A DNA stretch of 64,000 nt, taken from NCBI GenBank assembly GCA_017545535.1, contig JAFWMS010000028.1:62001-126000 (forward strand), in the 5' to 3' direction. The notes beneath the pieces are model-generated. The model worked only from the letters and a program-made list of their open reading frames with translations, had not been told where the DNA came from and made no database searches. Shown piece by piece: positions 1,494 to 7,685 of the stretch (the first letter of the stretch is position 1; each line of letters starts with the position of its first letter). The position numbers and the translations under genes were made by a program. The DNA comes from Clostridia bacterium. GTDB taxonomy: Bacteria; Bacillota; Clostridia; Christensenellales; CAG-138.

Positions 1494-2975
1494 TTATTTT
1501 TCCCGCTCCAGGGGCTTGATCTTGTTCCGATACAGCCGGAGCATCAGAACCCCGGCCAGGATCAGGTGGGAGAACTCCGCGATGGGGAAGGCCCACCAGA
1601 CCGCTTCGATCCGATGGGTGAGGGTGGCCATGAGGTAGGCCACGGGGAGCAGGATCACCAGCTGCCTCGCAAGGGACGTGATCATCCCGTAGATGCCCGT
1701 GTCCGTGGCCCCGTAGACCGTGCCCATGGAGATGCCCACGGCCGCGCAGACGAAGCCCCAGGCGATGATGTGGATGGTGGTGACGGTGACGCCGTAGGTG
1801 AAGTCGGAAACGGCGAACAGCTCCATGAGGGTGGGCGCCCCCAGCTCGAAGAGGGCCGTGCCCGCCACCATGAACACCGCGCAGAACAACGTCAGCATCC
1901 CGTAGGCCCGCATGAACCGCTTCTTGTTCCGGGCGCCGTAGTTGTAGCCCAGGATGCTCATGGCCGCGTTGTTGAGGCCGAACACCGGCATGAAGATCAC
2001 GGACTGGAGGCGGAAATAGGTGCCGAAGGCGCTCTTATAGGCGTCCACATAGTTCACGTTGGGGTCAAGATGCTCCATATGGTACTCGCCCAGGCCCTTC
2101 AAAATCCCGTTCATGCCCAGATACATGACCGTGCCCACGGCCTGCATGAGGATGGAGGGCACGCCCACGCTGTAGATGTCCTTCACGGTCTGCTTCCGGA
2201 GCCTGAAGTGCTCTTTCTTCAGCTGCACCTCGCTCTTGGAGCGGGTGAGCATGACCAGGGCCAGGCCCATGGACGCGAACTGGCCCGCCACCGTGGCGAT
2301 GGCCGCGCCGGTGACGCCCATGGCGGGGATGGGTCCCCAGCCCAGGACGAAGACCCGGTCCAAAATGATGTTGGAAAAGGCACCGGTCAATTGCATCATC
2401 ATGGCCACCATGGTCCGCCCCTGGGCGGTCATGATCCGCTCGATGCCCACGGAGAGGAAGATGCCCACGGAGAGGGACAGGCAGATGGTCATATACTCGG
2501 TGCCGAAGAGGCGGACGATGGGGTCGTTGTCCTGCCAGGTCATGAACGCCCGGGAGAGGAACAGCCCGATGCAGCTGAAGAACAGGGAGCTGATCACCAT
2601 GAGCACCAGCCCGTTGCCCGCGGCCCGGTTGGCATCCTCGCCCCGCATTTCGCCGAGACGCCGGGAGATGAGGGAGTTCATGCCCACGGCGGTGCCCACC
2701 GCCACGGAGATCATGAGCATCTGCAGCGGGTTCACCGTGGAGAGGGCGTTCAGGGCCTTGTCGCCGATGGTGCTCTCCGTGCCGGGCACGTAAAGCTCGC
2801 CCAAAATGCCCGTGAGCTGCTCCGGGCTCAGGGTGGAGAGCCGGGACACGAACACGCTGTCCACGATGTTGTACAGCGCCTGCACCAGCATGCTGACGAT
2901 GATGGGCCAGCCCATGCTGAGGAGCAATTTCCCCTCCGGCTCGGTGGCCATTTTGTTCTGTCGAATGTTTTCCAT
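1494..2975 (-). CDS. MATE family efflux transporter
   Basis: This 493-residue integral membrane protein belongs to the multidrug and toxin extrusion family (Na+ or H+ coupled export of cationic drugs or metabolites). It has about 12 hydrophobic segments in two similar halves. The N-half carries SMGWPIIVSMLVQALYNIVDSVFVSR and SRRLGE, both typical of the NorM/DinF-type fold; the C-half has FGLNNAAMSILGYNYGA. An in-frame ATG exists 12 codons upstream (3011), but it lies inside the predicted -35 box. The ATG at 2975 sits exactly where transcription should begin, 7 bases after a TATAAT box, so I prefer it; a further ATG at 2951 also lacks a Shine-Dalgarno site. It converges on metQ and is divergent from the leader-peptide operon. 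The substrate is unknown. Confidence 0.9.
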   Translation of the reverse strand: MENIRQNKMATEPEGKLLLSMGWPIIVSMLVQALYNIVDSVFVSRLSTLSPEQLTGILGELYVPGTESTIGDKALNALSTVNPLQMLMISVAVGTAVGMNSLISRRLGEMRGEDANRAAGNGLVLMVISSLFFSCIGLFLSRAFMTWQDNDPIVRLFGTEYMTICLSLSVGIFLSVGIERIMTAQGRTMVAMMMQLTGAFSNIILDRVFVLGWGPIPAMGVTGAAIATVAGQFASMGLALVMLTRSKSEVQLKKEHFRLRKQTVKDIYSVGVPSILMQAVGTVMYLGMNGILKGLGEYHMEHLDPNVNYVDAYKSAFGTYFRLQSVIFMPVFGLNNAAMSILGYNYGARNKKRFMRAYGMLTLFCAVFMVAGTALFELGAPTLMELFAVSDFTYGVTVTTIHIIAWGFVCAAVGISMGTVYGATDTGIYGMITSLARQLVILLPVAYLMATLTHRIEAVWWAFPIAEFSHLILAGVLMLRLYRNKIKPLEREK

Positions 2976-2982
2976 GGGCCGT

Positions 2983-3011
2983 ATTATATAGGAGGTTTTC
3001 TGCGAGCGCAA
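2983..3011 (-). promoter_or_regulatory. Promoter of the MATE gene, probably giving a leaderless mRNA
   Basis: On the minus strand TTGCGC (3006-3011), a 17-base spacer and TATAAT (2983-2988) form a good sigma-A promoter. Exactly 7 bases separate the -10 box from the ATG at 2975, which places the expected start point on or next to the start codon. No Shine-Dalgarno sequence precedes the ATG. Confidence 0.72.
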
Positions 3012-3063
3012 GCCCTTGTTTTCGGGAAAAAGCGCGCAAGTTCTTTTCTATCCGTTTTTGAGG

Positions 3064-3092
3064 TTGCATGCCGCGGGACATGCATATATAAT
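3064..3092 (+). promoter_or_regulatory. Promoter with palindromic spacer, upstream of the leader peptide operon
   Basis: TTGCAT (3064-3069), a 17-base spacer and TATAAT (3087-3092) form the promoter. The spacer carries a dyad, TGCATG (3065-3070) and CATGCA (3079-3084), around a CCGCGG core, as expected for a repressor or activator site between the -35 and -10 boxes. The CD3324-type protein encoded downstream could be the ligand of this site, which is inference. Confidence 0.65.
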
Positions 3093-3135
3093 ACATATTG
3101 AATCATGCGTAATCTATAGAAAGGAGGCTAAATCA

Positions 3136-3162
3136 ATGATCGTGAGGTTCTTGACGGTCTGA
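3136..3162 (+). CDS. Eight-codon leader peptide MIVRFLTV
   Basis: ATG ATC GTG AGG TTC TTG ACG GTC TGA is preceded by AAAGGAGG at the ideal 7-base distance, a better ribosome site than most genes here have. The stop codon and last sense codon form the 5' arm of an 11-bp hairpin (3157-3167 with 3181-3191). A ribosome finishing or pausing on this ORF would therefore melt the hairpin and change access to the next gene at 3218. This is the layout of translational or transcriptional attenuators for antibiotic-resistance genes. The peptide does not match a stalling motif I know. Coding status is inferred from the ribosome site and geometry. Confidence 0.6.
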   Translation: MIVRFLTV

Positions 3163-3214
3163 GCTTAAATCCGTGAATCCTAAGCTCAGACGGTTCCTGA
3201 TATGTAGGAGGACC
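3153..3214 (+). promoter_or_regulatory. Attenuator-like RNA hairpins before the CD3324-type regulator
   Basis: Hairpin 1 pairs GTCTGAGCTTA (3157-3167) with TAAGCTCAGAC (3181-3191) around a 13-base loop and can extend by a few pairs to 3153/3195. Hairpin 2 pairs GGT-TCCT (3192-3198) with AGGA-ACC (3206-3214, two bases bulged) and covers the AGGAGG ribosome site of the next gene. The extended form of hairpin 1 and hairpin 2 share bases 3192-3195, so they can compete. There is no T-run, so control of translation is more likely than of termination. Confidence 0.55.
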
Positions 3215-3217
3215 AGT

Positions 3218-3517
3218 ATGAGCTATATCAAGGCAGATAAGGTGCTGCCCAAGGAGTTAATCGAAGCTATCCAGCACTATATAGACGGCAAATCCATCTA
3301 TATCCCAAGTAAACAGAAGCAGGCATGGGGGAACGGCACCTCCGCCAAGGCGTACTTTCGGGAACGAAACGAAAGGATATGCGACGCCTACCAAAGCGGA
3401 GCAAGCCGAAGGGAGCTGTCCCTCCGCTTTGCGTTGTCTGAAAAGAGCATCCAGCGCATCCTGCGGGAACAGAACAAACGACACAACGATTTCAACAATG
3501 GGGAGGAAACACCATGA
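3218..3517 (+). CDS. CD3324 family / Mor-like DNA-binding regulator
   Basis: This 99-residue protein resembles the small CD3324-family proteins of Clostridia, which carry a Mor-activator-like helix-turn-helix. Recognisable parts are YIKADKVLPKELIEAIQHYIDG at the N-terminus, the short YIPSK strand near residue 29, and a C-terminal HTH (YQSGASRRELSLRFALSEKSIQRILREQ, about residues 58-86). The start at 3218 is chosen because AGGAGG lies 7 bases before it; an ATG at 3173 lies inside the leader hairpin and has no ribosome site. The stop codon overlaps the next start (ATGA), so it is translationally coupled to the acetyltransferase fusion. It probably regulates this operon, perhaps through the dyad at 3065-3084. 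Confidence 0.8.
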   Translation: MSYIKADKVLPKELIEAIQHYIDGKSIYIPSKQKQAWGNGTSAKAYFRERNERICDAYQSGASRRELSLRFALSEKSIQRILREQNKRHNDFNNGEETP

Positions 3518-5007
3518 ACATACAATTAAGACCTGTGGACGACAGCAACCGGGAGGCGGTCTTGGCCCTGTCTGTCCGGGAGGACCAGCCCTTCGTGGCG
3601 CCCAACGACGTATCCCTGCGGCAGGCGGCGGAAACGAATGAAAAATACCACGGCGTGGCCCGTCCCTTCGGCATCTATGCGGACGAGAAGCTGGTGGGCT
3701 TCTGCATGTTTGTATTTGCGCCGCAGGCGGAGGACGAGGACGATCGCTACTGGCTTTGGCGCTTCATGATCGACCAAAGCGAGCAGGGCAAGGGCTACGG
3801 CCAGGCGGCCCTCGCCGAGATCATCCGCTATTTCAAAAAGAACGGCGCGGACAGGCTCTTCCTCTCCACCGAGCCGGAGAACGAGCGGGGTCTACATATC
3901 TATCACAAGGCCGGCTTTCGGGAGACCGGCATCATCGACGGCGACGAAGCCGTCCTCATGCGGATGCTGAAGGGGCCCAACCGGATCGTCAAGAATTTCT
4001 ATGGCGTGGACGTGGATAAGGCCATGCGGATCAGAGGCAGGAAGGGCTACGGCGTCAGCATCGCCGTTTCGGACAGCGACGGCGATTTGAGCACCTACTG
4101 CGCCGGCAGCGGCCGGTACGGCCAGGATTTCCCGGTGAACCCGGACATGCTCTTCCAGGCGGGCTCCGTCTCTAAGCCCATGTTCGCCCTGACTCTCCTC
4201 AGGTACGCGGACAAGGGGAAGATCGATCTCGACGCGGACATCTCCGGCGTGGTGCCGGAATTCGTGAAGAAGGGCCCGGTGACCTTCGCCGCCCTGCTCT
4301 CTCACACGGCGGGGTATAACGTCCACGGCTTTCCGGGCTATCCGGCCGCCCACGAGCCCCTGTCCCTGGAGGACGTGCTCTCGGGCAAGGGCAACACGCC
4401 CCGGCTCCGGCGCATCCGGCCCTACGGCAAGCAGCACATGTACTCCGGCGGCGGCATCACTCTCGCTGAGCTCGCTTTCACCCGCATCACGGGCACCACC
4501 CTACGGGACGCCTTCCAAAAGGAGGTGGCGGAGCCCCTGGGCCTTCAGCGCACCGGCTTCTTCCAGCCCCTGGACGAGGAACTGGTCGGCAACGCGGCCT
4601 TCGGCTGGCGGCTTGGTGAGAAGGAGGATGCGGCCCACGGCTATCACTACTATCCCGAGCACGCGGCGGCGGGCCTTTGGACCACGCCCACGGAGCTGGT
4701 CAAGGTCGGTATCGCCCTGTCGCGGAGCTATCGCCGGGGTGGCTTCCTGAAAAAGAAGACCGCCCGGCGCATGATGACGCCGATCATGGACGACTACGGG
4801 CTTTGCCTGGACGTCTGGGAGTCGGAAGCCCGAGAGGACAGCGTGGCCGGTCACACCGGAGAAAACTGGGGTTTTTTGACCAGCTGGGTCTTCTCCCGCA
4901 AGAAGGATATCTGCGTGGCCGTGATGTACAACAACGTGACGGCAGCCGCCGATGTGGCCATGGAAAACATCGCCTGTGAGATCTACAAAAACGCAAAGGA
5001 AGAATAG
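3514..5007 (+). CDS. GNAT acetyltransferase fused to a class C beta-lactamase-like serine hydrolase
   Basis: This is a two-domain protein of 497 residues without signal peptide, so it is predicted cytoplasmic. Residues 1-150 form a GNAT N-acetyltransferase of the BltD/SpeG-like kind; the acetyl-CoA loop reads QGKGYGQAAL near residue 91, after WRFMIDQ. Residues 165-490 form a serine hydrolase of the class C beta-lactamase/transpeptidase fold: Ser218-x-x-Lys221 (SVSK), Tyr310 in YSGG (the usual Asn is Gly) and His447-Thr-Gly. Such hydrolases include esterases and peptidases as well as beta-lactamases, so the substrate cannot be read from sequence. The start overlaps the upstream stop by 4 bases. 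Acetylation plus hydrolysis in one chain suggests inactivation of one small molecule, which is inference. Confidence 0.88.
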   Translation: MNIQLRPVDDSNREAVLALSVREDQPFVAPNDVSLRQAAETNEKYHGVARPFGIYADEKLVGFCMFVFAPQAEDEDDRYWLWRFMIDQSEQGKGYGQAALAEIIRYFKKNGADRLFLSTEPENERGLHIYHKAGFRETGIIDGDEAVLMRMLKGPNRIVKNFYGVDVDKAMRIRGRKGYGVSIAVSDSDGDLSTYCAGSGRYGQDFPVNPDMLFQAGSVSKPMFALTLLRYADKGKIDLDADISGVVPEFVKKGPVTFAALLSHTAGYNVHGFPGYPAAHEPLSLEDVLSGKGNTPRLRRIRPYGKQHMYSGGGITLAELAFTRITGTTLRDAFQKEVAEPLGLQRTGFFQPLDEELVGNAAFGWRLGEKEDAAHGYHYYPEHAAAGLWTTPTELVKVGIALSRSYRRGGFLKKKTARRMMTPIMDDYGLCLDVWESEAREDSVAGHTGENWGFLTSWVFSRKKDICVAVMYNNVTAAADVAMENIACEIYKNAKEE

Positions 5008-5014
5008 GGAAAGC

Positions 5015-7171
5015 ATGATCTACGAGCTGAAGGACAGAGCGAAGGCTGCGCCCCTGTTCGCGGGCATGGAGGACTCCATGATCGCCTCCTGCCTGCAGGG
5101 GATGATGGACAGCAAGATATACGTAACCGATCCCGAGCATCCCAAGTCCGCCTTGGCCCACCTCGCCGATTTCGCCTTCCTGGCCGGGGCGCCGGACCGG
5201 GCGCTGGTAGCGGAGGGCAAGCCCCAGGGCTTCGTGGTCATGGTGCCCCCCGACGAAGCCTGGGCGCAGCTCATCGAGGACTGCTTCCCGGGGGTCGAGC
5301 GGTGGACCCGCTACGCCATCAAAAAGGACACGACCTTCGACCGGGAAAACCTGGAACGGCTGGCGGCGTCCCTGCCCGCCGGGTACGAGATGCGCCGGAT
5401 CGACGGGGACCTGTACGACAAATGCCTGGCAGAGCCCCTGTTCACGGACGGGGTGTGCCACTTCGGCTCCAAGGAAACGTATCTTGAACAGGGCCGGGGC
5501 TTCGCCGTGGTGAAGGACGGGGCGCCGGTGTCCATGGCCTCCTCCTACACAGTGTACCGGGAGGGCATCGAGATCGAGATCGACACCCTGGAATCGGAGC
5601 GAAGGAAGGGCCTCGCCACGGCGGTGGGCGCCCGGCTGATCCTATCCTGTCTCGACGACAATCTCTACCCCAGCTGGGATGCGGCCAACATGGATTCGGT
5701 CCGCCTGGCCGAAAAACTGGGGTACGCGTTCAGCCACGAGTACTATTGCTATGGCATTGAGGAGACGAATTCCACAATACATCAGGAGGATACAATGGAT
5801 AAGAAAACTTTGATGGAAAACCTGGCGCAAGCGCTGCAGGAAAAGGATTGCTTCAACGGGGCCTGGCTCTACGCCGAGAAGGGTGAGATCGTATCGAAGG
5901 GCGCTATAGGCTTCCGGGACCCGGGGGACACGCTGCCCATCACGGAGGACACCATCTTTCAGCTGGCCTCCGTCAGCAAGACCTTCACAGGGGCGGCAAC
6001 TTTGCTGGTGGTGCGGCAGGGCAAGCTGAGCCTGGAGGACAGGATCACGAAGTATTTCCCGGAGCTCACGGCCTACGAGGGCGTGACGGTCCGGCATCTT
6101 TTGAACCACACCAGCGGCATCCCCGATTACTTTGACGACGCGGACTGGTTCATCGACCTCTGGAAGAAGGAGCAGCGGGTGCCGGGCAACGACGAGATCC
6201 TGCGCTTCCTCCAAGAAACCAAGGCGAAGCCCTATTTCGCCCCGGGGGAGGGATTGCGATACTCCAACACCGGCTACAACCTGCTGGCCCTGCTGGTGGA
6301 GCGGCTCTCCGGCGTCCCCTATGAAGAATTCCTGCAAAGGAACATCTTCGAGCCCGCCGGCATGACCGCCACCCGCTGCTGCCATATCCGCCGGGACGGC
6401 GTCCCCTTTGAGAACTACGCCCAGGCCACGGTGTTCGAGAACGGCAGATGGGTGGCCGACGTGGACTCCGAGGAGGACGGCGACGTGGTGGCCTTCGACG
6501 GGCTCAATGGCGACGACTACGTGTTCACCAATATCTTCGACATGCTCAAATGGGACCGGGCCCTCCGGGAGGGCAAGGTGCTGACGCTGGAGGAGCAGCA
6601 GCTCGCGTACACCCCCGGCAAGCTGAACAACGGCGAGGACGCCGTGTACGACGCGGAGGACGGCCTGGGCTACGGTTTGGGCTGGGCCGTGGGCCGGGAG
6701 GAGGAGCTGGGGCTGGTGGTCAGCCACAGCGGCGGCATGCCGGGCGTCAGTACCTGGTTCGAGCGCTTCATCGACGCGGACAGGGTCCTGGTGATCCTCA
6801 GCAACCGGGACTACCGGGACGTGAGAGCGTATTTGGGCTACTGGAACGGCATGGAGGCCATCGTCCGGGACAAGGAGCCGGAGCCCATCGTCTCCATCGA
6901 AGACATCGCCGTCAAGGACCCCGACAAATCGAAGTGGGAAAGCTATTGCGGCAAGTACGAGCATCCCGAGGACGCCGATTTCATCGTGGACGAAGTGTTC
7001 CTGAAAGACGGCGAACTTCATGTCAATGCCATCGACGACGATGGGGACGATATGACCTTCCGCCTCTATCCCCTCGGGGAGAACGAGTTCGGCCGCAAGG
7101 GCGGCATGCTGAAGCTGACATTCGGCGAAAACTGCCTGACCATCGATGACAAAACCTGCAAAAAGCTGTAA
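5015..7171 (+). CDS. GNAT (PF12746-like) acetyltransferase fused to a beta-lactamase-fold serine hydrolase
   Basis: This is a 718-residue protein with no signal peptide. Residues 1-250 resemble the GNAT_acetyltr_2 group, ending in WDAANMDSVRLAEKLGY, a typical GNAT beta-strand/helix close. Residues 261-600 are a class C beta-lactamase-fold hydrolase with Ser319-x-x-Lys322 (SVSK), Tyr416-Ser-Asn418 and His571-Ser-Gly573, so all three active-site motifs are intact. Residues 630-718 look like the DUF3471-type tail found on such hydrolases. The acetyltransferase is of a different subfamily from that in the preceding gene, so this is not a simple tandem duplication. An in-frame AGGAGG and ATG sit at the domain junction (5784-5797). 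The start is only 7 bp after the previous stop. Confidence 0.88.
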   Translation: MIYELKDRAKAAPLFAGMEDSMIASCLQGMMDSKIYVTDPEHPKSALAHLADFAFLAGAPDRALVAEGKPQGFVVMVPPDEAWAQLIEDCFPGVERWTRYAIKKDTTFDRENLERLAASLPAGYEMRRIDGDLYDKCLAEPLFTDGVCHFGSKETYLEQGRGFAVVKDGAPVSMASSYTVYREGIEIEIDTLESERRKGLATAVGARLILSCLDDNLYPSWDAANMDSVRLAEKLGYAFSHEYYCYGIEETNSTIHQEDTMDKKTLMENLAQALQEKDCFNGAWLYAEKGEIVSKGAIGFRDPGDTLPITEDTIFQLASVSKTFTGAATLLVVRQGKLSLEDRITKYFPELTAYEGVTVRHLLNHTSGIPDYFDDADWFIDLWKKEQRVPGNDEILRFLQETKAKPYFAPGEGLRYSNTGYNLLALLVERLSGVPYEEFLQRNIFEPAGMTATRCCHIRRDGVPFENYAQATVFENGRWVADVDSEEDGDVVAFDGLNGDDYVFTNIFDMLKWDRALREGKVLTLEEQQLAYTPGKLNNGEDAVYDAEDGLGYGLGWAVGREEELGLVVSHSGGMPGVSTWFERFIDADRVLVILSNRDYRDVRAYLGYWNGMEAIVRDKEPEPIVSIEDIAVKDPDKSKWESYCGKYEHPEDADFIVDEVFLKDGELHVNAIDDDGDDMTFRLYPLGENEFGRKGGMLKLTFGENCLTIDDKTCKKL
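5784..5797 (+). promoter_or_regulatory. Internal ribosome site and in-frame ATG at the fusion junction
   Basis: AGGAGG (5784-5789) lies 5 bases before ATG (5795-5797), which is codon 261 of the fusion and begins MDKKTLMENLAQAL, a natural N-terminus for the hydrolase domain. The site could yield the hydrolase alone as a second product, or be a relic of two separate genes that lost the stop codon between them. Confidence 0.6.
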
Positions 7172-7205: not shown

Positions 7206-7685
7206 ATGATACATCTTGAAAAGCTTACCTATGAGAACTTTAACGACGTCTTTGAGCTTAGAGTAAAAAAGGCGCAGTACCCCTTTGTGGCGGACAACTG
7301 TTACAGCGTTGCCGAAGCGTACGTGACCATGATCAACGGCGGGCATGTATTTCCTTTCGCCATCTACAACGACAAACGGCTTGTCGGCTTCATCCAGCTC
7401 GCGTACGGCGAGAACGCGGATCAGGACGAGGTAAGCGTCGCAAAGGACAATTACGAGATCTGGCGCTTCATGATCGACAAACGATATCAGGGCCGCGGCT
7501 ACGGCAAAGCCGCACTGAAGCTGGCCCTCGATTTCATCCGAACATGGCCCTGTGGAAAAGCCGAATACTGCTGGATCTCCTACGAACCCGAGAATGAGAC
7601 AGCAAAAAAGCTATACGCCTCCTTCGGCTTCGAGGAAACGGGCGAAATGGACGGAGAAGAAGTCGTGGCGGTGATGAAACTGTGA
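7206..7685 (+). CDS. GNAT family N-acetyltransferase (BltD/SpeG-like)
   Basis: This is a 159-residue single-domain acetyltransferase. Motif A is clear: WRFMIDKRYQGRGYGKAAL, with the Q/RxxGxG/A acetyl-CoA loop at about residues 97-105. It is followed by EPENETAKKLYASFGFEETGE, the closing element of motif B. It is closely similar in pattern to the N-terminal domain of the first fusion protein (both have WRFMID and EPENE), so the two may share ancestry and substrate class. GGAGAG lies about 10 bases before the ATG. The gene follows the second fusion after 34 bp and ends the apparent operon. The substrate is unknown; polyamines or aminated drugs are typical for relatives. Confidence 0.88.
   Translation: MIHLEKLTYENFNDVFELRVKKAQYPFVADNCYSVAEAYVTMINGGHVFPFAIYNDKRLVGFIQLAYGENADQDEVSVAKDNYEIWRFMIDKRYQGRGYGKAALKLALDFIRTWPCGKAEYCWISYEPENETAKKLYASFGFEETGEMDGEEVVAVMKL

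Follow-up and report, generated by a model that had tools for sequence, protein, structure and literature searches.

A probable ribosome-mediated translational attenuator preceding CD3324-family regulator genes in Bacillota

Results and Discussion

The leader of a CD3324-family regulator gene in a Clostridia bacterium is probably a ribosome-mediated translational attenuator of a resistance regulator, similar to those of erm genes and toiL. We analyzed a 64,000-nt stretch of contig JAFWMS010000028.1 (hereafter the window), in which both structure prediction and comparison indicated mutually exclusive pairings in this leader. A single arm, segment 3, pairs either with an arm at the stop codon of a short upstream open reading frame (uORF; 2:3 pairing) or with the ribosome site and start codon of the regulator (3:4 pairing). 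Relatives of the leader occur before CD3324-family genes in many Bacillota, with several unrelated stem sequences.

The regulator and its operon

The regulator gene (3218-3517, + strand, as are all leader and operon features below) encodes a CD3324-family HTH (Mor-like) protein, which scored 100.1 bits against NF040785 (cut-off 65) and weakly resembles transcription activators of the Mor type (Pfam Mor PF08765, scored at 26.4 bits with a cut-off of 24.9). Its end is overlapped by a gene for a GNAT acetyltransferase + serine beta-lactamase-like fusion (3514-5007). A GNAT + beta-lactamase-like fusion (5015-7171) is the probable third operon gene and a GNAT acetyltransferase (7206-7685) the probable last one; the two tandem fusions of this operon differ from each other. 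No homologue of the CD3324 protein of the window was found in phage records. A full-text search of the open literature yielded no paper describing the CD3324 family (the matches were nematode papers, taken as unrelated), and only passing mentions of DUF1062, a frequent CD3324 neighbor.

A probable promoter, read by eye, spans 3064-3092 (TTGCAT 3064-3069, a 17-nt spacer, and TATAAT 3087-3092); a pattern scan for intrinsic terminators and sigma-70 promoters gave no match and did not score it. At its -35 position lies the motif GAGGTTG (3060-3066), and GAGGTTG, AGGTTG, or GAGGTGG was observed at the equivalent place in most relatives with a window-type or MGY-type stem; roughly 20 nt upstream of it, additional elements are partly conserved. 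The CD3324 protein is a candidate to bind this motif, and it may control its own gene. A MATE-type efflux gene is transcribed in the opposite direction from the same intergenic region (2969-3064), and the spacer of the efflux-gene promoter holds GAAAACCTC on the minus strand; the efflux gene may share the CD3324 regulator.

Anatomy of the leader

The Shine-Dalgarno sequence of the uORF, AAAGGAGG (3120-3127), is located 8 nt before the ATG at 3136 and is kept in relatives. The uORF (3136-3162; ATG ATC GTG AGG TTC TTG ACG GTC TGA) has eight codons and encodes MIVRFLTV, and the same or related peptides are found in relatives. Its stop TGA (3160-3162) lies inside the left arm of hairpin 1, which is formed by segment 2, GTCTGAGCTTA (3157-3167), and segment 3, TAAGCTCAGAC (3181-3191), with 11 perfect pairs and a 13-nt loop. 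A second hairpin, GGTTCCT (3192-3198) with AGGAGGACC (3206-3214) and a bulged GG, covers the Shine-Dalgarno sequence of the regulator.

The initial annotation had located the uORF and both hairpins correctly to the base, and its proposal that an extended first hairpin competes with the second also held. The competition is larger than it described: AGCTCA (3183-3188) in the right arm is complementary to segment 4, TGAGCT (3219-3224), across the regulator start codon, and this pairing lengthens the second hairpin, giving a stem that sequesters the start region. Folding of 3171-3230 alone produced exactly this long stem. When 3136-3170 was blocked, a check that had been suggested with the original proposal, hairpin 1 gave way in the prediction to a fold with the start region sequestered.

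A further arm, segment 1, is strong in relatives (GCTCAG/CTGAGC) but nearly lost in the window. Here the sequence offers a weak candidate, AGGTTC (3145-3150), that could pair with GAGCTT (3161-3166); it was not picked as the best window stem in the pairing scan.

The fold of the whole leader was only mildly stable in comparison with shuffles (z = -1.6), so energy alone is unconvincing. Searching for 11-bp perfect inverted repeats with a 6-30-nt loop returned 53 overlapping matches at about a dozen places in the window, against 0-1 in block-shuffled copies. Hairpin 1 is therefore unusual by itself but not unique, and the weight rests on its placement and conservation.

Leaders inside the genus

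Three other congeneric species encode MIVRFLTV or MIVRFLAV and share the stem, Shine-Dalgarno hairpin, and start seen in the window. In a fourth species (G008), the uORF encodes MRKRYVTAQ and its stop TAG directly precedes the same stem. The sequences ACGGCTCAGTAGTCTGAGC of G008 and ACGGTCTGAGC of the window differ by 8 nt (CTCAGTAG), and with these 8 nt the window lacks the arm GCTCAG found in relatives; the difference was read by hand, because the MAFFT alignment of the subgroup leaders misplaces uORF codons. In two species (L007 and L008), the leader is gone, as is all or most of the regulator, and the GNAT gene now lies immediately behind the promoter; a remnant of the regulator 3' end remains in L007.

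The stem pattern TCTGRGCTTAN{6,26}TAAGCTCAGA was searched in sets of 396 and 103 genomes. Each positive genome held it at one place, upstream of a CD3324 gene, with G063 (L149) as the sole exception, while the reversed pattern, used as a control, gave 0 matches in the same sets. In G063, MTRKYVNAQ and the stem directly precede a DUF1062-like gene, and DUF1062-family genes follow CD3324 elsewhere. This genome, which is 84% complete, gave no CD3324 match, implying that the leader can persist without the regulator.

Leaders outside the genus

Genomes were sampled at the levels of family, order, class, and phylum; CD3324 genes were collected from them and the regions upstream of these genes were read. 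In the class, 69 of 391 sampled genomes had CD3324 matches, 59 of which were above the family cut-off. Downstream genes include those for GNAT, DUF1062, RNHCP, ABC-F, RsgA, EF-G-binding (FusB type), Erm-like, and APH proteins, and a FusB/FusC gene adjoins a CD3324 gene on a Pseudalkalibacillus plasmid.

The order uORF, stop, hairpin, and ribosome site precedes at least 39 CD3324 genes, with 32 distinct peptides. The shared plan comprises a short uORF, a stop at or inside a hairpin, and a hairpin arm able to re-pair with the start region. Absence of the small ORF from homologous operons, or stems broken without compensation, had been named in advance as evidence against attenuation. We found that homologous leaders keep an 8-11-codon uORF and the stem, and that distant leaders with other stem sequences form the same alternative pairings. 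About seven CD3324 genes of one lineage showed no uORF and hairpin of this kind in their upstream regions, and other CD3324 genes carry leaders of other architectures.

The stem sequences fall into groups: TCTGAGCTTA occurs with the gene start ATGAGCTAT, GATGGCTATGTG with ATGGGCTAT, and in the AGCAAAGGCTAT group AGCA and ATG[AG]GCTAT flank the gene start. The stem groups thus track the gene-start sequence, meaning that segment 2 resembles segment 4 and that segment 3 can pair with either. Segment 1, located in the last uORF codons, pairs with segment 2 in most leaders, with compensating changes (GGCTCAG/CTGAGCT, GCATAGC/GCTATGT, TCATAGC/GCTATGA, GTTGCG/CGCAAC, TTTTTGCA/TGCAAAAA, and GCATGC/GCATGC). 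This covariation comes from other subgroups, because the stem hardly varies within the TCTGAGCTTA subgroup.

Predicted direction of the switch

We folded each leader with a ribosome placed at every uORF codon and read out the cost of opening the start region; the leading edge of the ribosome was set 15 nt downstream of the first P-site base. As controls, the region between the uORF and the ribosome site was shuffled. Over 30 leaders, moving the ribosome from the uORF end to codons 3-6 lowered the opening cost by a mean of 6.4 kcal/mol (shuffles, 0.4), and 29 leaders exceeded the mean of their own shuffles; since the leaders are kin, test statistics overstate their independence and P values are not to be taken literally. 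Relative to a leader without a ribosome, an early ribosome lowered the cost by 3.1 kcal/mol across leaders (shuffles, 0.5). Two leaders (L068 and L092) showed little effect.

The early versus uORF-end difference in the window leader was 6.8 kcal/mol, a value reached by 0 of 40 shuffles. By ribosome position, its opening cost was 3.8 to 6.4 kcal/mol at codons 1-3, 9.9 at codon 4, and 12.5 to 14.0 at codons 5-8; without a ribosome it was 5.3 to 7.6, depending on the amount of 5' sequence folded. These values describe equilibrium folding with an assumed ribosome footprint, and shifting the assumed edge by 2 nt moved the switch boundary by about one codon.

The model predicts that early stalling corresponds to the ON state and uORF completion to the OFF state, a direction that the initial annotation had left undecided. 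In the genus of the window, the absence of a ribosome is also predicted to be ON, not OFF, because segment 1 is missing (8 bases). The geometry of ribosome-mediated attenuation, recognized earlier in the window alone, is thus supported by both the comparison of leaders and the in-silico folding. New relative to that earlier reading are the base pairing at the start codon, the segment 1 arm of relatives, the motif in the peptides, and how widely the family occurs.

Leader peptides and the probable trigger

The motif [K/R]-[Y/F]-[V/I/L/G] was present in eight of the 32 distinct peptides, against 0.9 expected when residues were permuted within peptides. It spans different stem groups (MKRYVIFA, MRKYVMYA, MTRKYVNAQ, and MIVRFLTV) and is enriched at the codons where the predicted fold opens. 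Synonymous changes were observed in the uORFs, namely GTT, GTA, and GTG for V6, and CTT/CTG and CCT/CCG in MLNPIVMVA. Starts of the form M[K/R]x[K/R] occurred in seven of 32 peptides (1.3 expected). They resemble the +X+ macrolide/ketolide arrest motif of ErmDL (PMC8298421), which MIVRFLTV of the window does not contain; with 7/32 peptides fitting, we do not claim strict macrolide +X+ as a common trigger.

From the arrest-like peptide motifs and the resistance and ribosome-protection genes in the neighborhood, we infer that ribosome-targeting drugs are the trigger. Amino-acid starvation sensing is unlikely in the stem subgroup of the window, where the basic position is either Arg or Lys, with mixed codons and no one-codon run.

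Proposed mechanism and alternatives

A ribosome reaching the uORF stop would cover segment 2, whereupon segment 3 would pair with the regulator ribosome site and start codon (3:4), and no regulator would be made. A stall at the first codons (P-site codons 1-3 in the window, at most 4) would instead permit the 2:3 pairing and free the start region. In the genus of the window, a ribosome that does not load would have the same outcome. The stall would probably be caused by a ribosome-targeting antibiotic acting at the nascent [K/R]-[Y/F]-[V/L] motif, here R4-F5-L6, and the probable output would be the regulator and the co-transcribed GNAT/beta-lactamase-like genes. Termination at the uORF stop followed by reinitiation at the regulator is unlikely, as the two are 55 nt apart.

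The same RNA switch could respond to ribosome loading or to the general translation rate, and not to a drug stall at a peptide motif. Such a signal would suit the genus of the window, where the segment 1 arm is gone and the predicted fold is equally open whether the ribosome is absent or at an early codon, and it would accommodate the non-uniformity of the peptides across relatives. However, most relatives keep segment 1, and in the folding of the leaders an early stall differed from absence well beyond the shuffles; the enrichment of the peptide motif at the codons where the fold opens also points to a stall. We regard this alternative as possible but rather unlikely.

Alternatively, the inverted repeat might be a DNA operator for the CD3324 protein, with an incidental uORF. 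The stem is almost invariant in its subgroup, the neighboring gene encodes a small HTH protein, and autoregulation is common. An operator is nevertheless improbable in light of the arm spacing, which ranges between 13 and about 20 nt with no sign of a helical step, and of the overlap between the repeat and the uORF stop; the counterparts of the repeat in other subgroups change together with the start-codon region and the uORF end, and G063 keeps the repeat and uORF although its genome, 84% complete, gave no CD3324 match. Stable 5' hairpins can also protect mRNA, and an eight-codon uORF with a Shine-Dalgarno sequence could arise by chance. A role for the hairpin as an mRNA stabilizer, transcription pause, or terminator beside such a chance uORF is nonetheless highly implausible, given that neither a terminator hairpin nor a U-tract was found in 3100-3218 and that dozens of leaders repeat the frame of the uORF and features of its peptide while differing at synonymous positions.

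Relation to known attenuators

A search of the window against Rfam at a relaxed threshold gave one chance match, on the other strand only, and 20 related loci matched only unrelated T-box, FMN, and fluoride elements. The leader thus lies outside the curated families and is a new family of a known attenuator kind. Like the CD3324 leaders, erm-type attenuators (ermC, ermD/ErmDL) have a short leader peptide, and their four-segment refolding, which frees a downstream ribosome site, resembles the one predicted here. Their 1:2, 2:3, and 3:4 logic is matched by most CD3324 leaders of this plan, with segment 1 nearly lost in the genus of the window; their early, drug-dependent stall would have its counterpart in the stall proposed here. 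They differ in that erm leaders control a methyltransferase and CD3324 leaders a regulator gene, and the two share no common sequence. In actinobacteria, a uORF attenuator lies upstream of whiB7, which encodes a transcription factor controlling ribosome-drug resistance genes. The placement before a regulator is alike, whereas whiB7 employs transcription attenuation and belongs to an unrelated protein family.

The toiL uORF, which belongs to topAI of E. coli, senses several drug classes, and ribosomes stalled on it uncover a ribosome site that is otherwise occluded (PMC12121999). The repressive toiL hairpin includes the uORF, whereas in the window a separate arm is predicted to pair alternately with the end of the uORF and with the start codon. 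The cplR leader of Clostridioides difficile is antibiotic-inducible, with the very short uORF MRI and a sequestered Shine-Dalgarno sequence (PMC10201436); cplR also has an intrinsic terminator, its direct product is an ABC-F protein, and no sequence similarity to the window was noted.

CD3324 proteins occur commonly in Clostridia as well as in other Bacillota, often beside antibiotic-resistance-like and ribosome-protection genes, and a leader that apparently senses the translation state gives them a likely job. Tentatively, and with appreciable doubt, these leaders might form a large class of attenuators, as yet undescribed, that sense drugs through a nascent-peptide arrest motif, [K/R]-[Y/F]-[V/I/L], likewise undescribed, with CD3324 proteins as whiB7-like regulators of ribosome-drug defence across Bacillota; the 8-base loss of segment 1 in the genus of the window would then have converted a switch specific for stalls into one set to ON in every case where ribosomes leave the uORF unfinished. 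The leaders offer a natural series of arrest-peptide candidates and rewired four-segment switches.

Other leaders before CD3324 genes

We observed a second leader type (GGCTCC...GCAAAGACTG) before MKY-type CD3324 genes, in which one arm could pair with either of two downstream arms (L053, L054, L057, L061, L064, L082, L139, and L180); some of these genes are followed by FusB-type, Vat-like, or ABC-F genes. A third type has one or two tandem terminator-like hairpins (CACGAT..ATCGTG TTTT; CCGTGG..CCACGG TTTT) before the CD3324 gene (L063, L067, L073, L076, L081, L109, L111, L113, L114, L116, L117, L129, L133, and L138), an arrangement that likely reflects transcription attenuation. At L120, L122, L125, L130, and L131, the uORFs end in QVIST* (MNSIQVIST, MKKTQVIST, and MKKIQVIST) or KVV[NS]Y* (MIEKIKVVNY and MIRILKVVSY), which are conserved peptide ends of still further leader classes.
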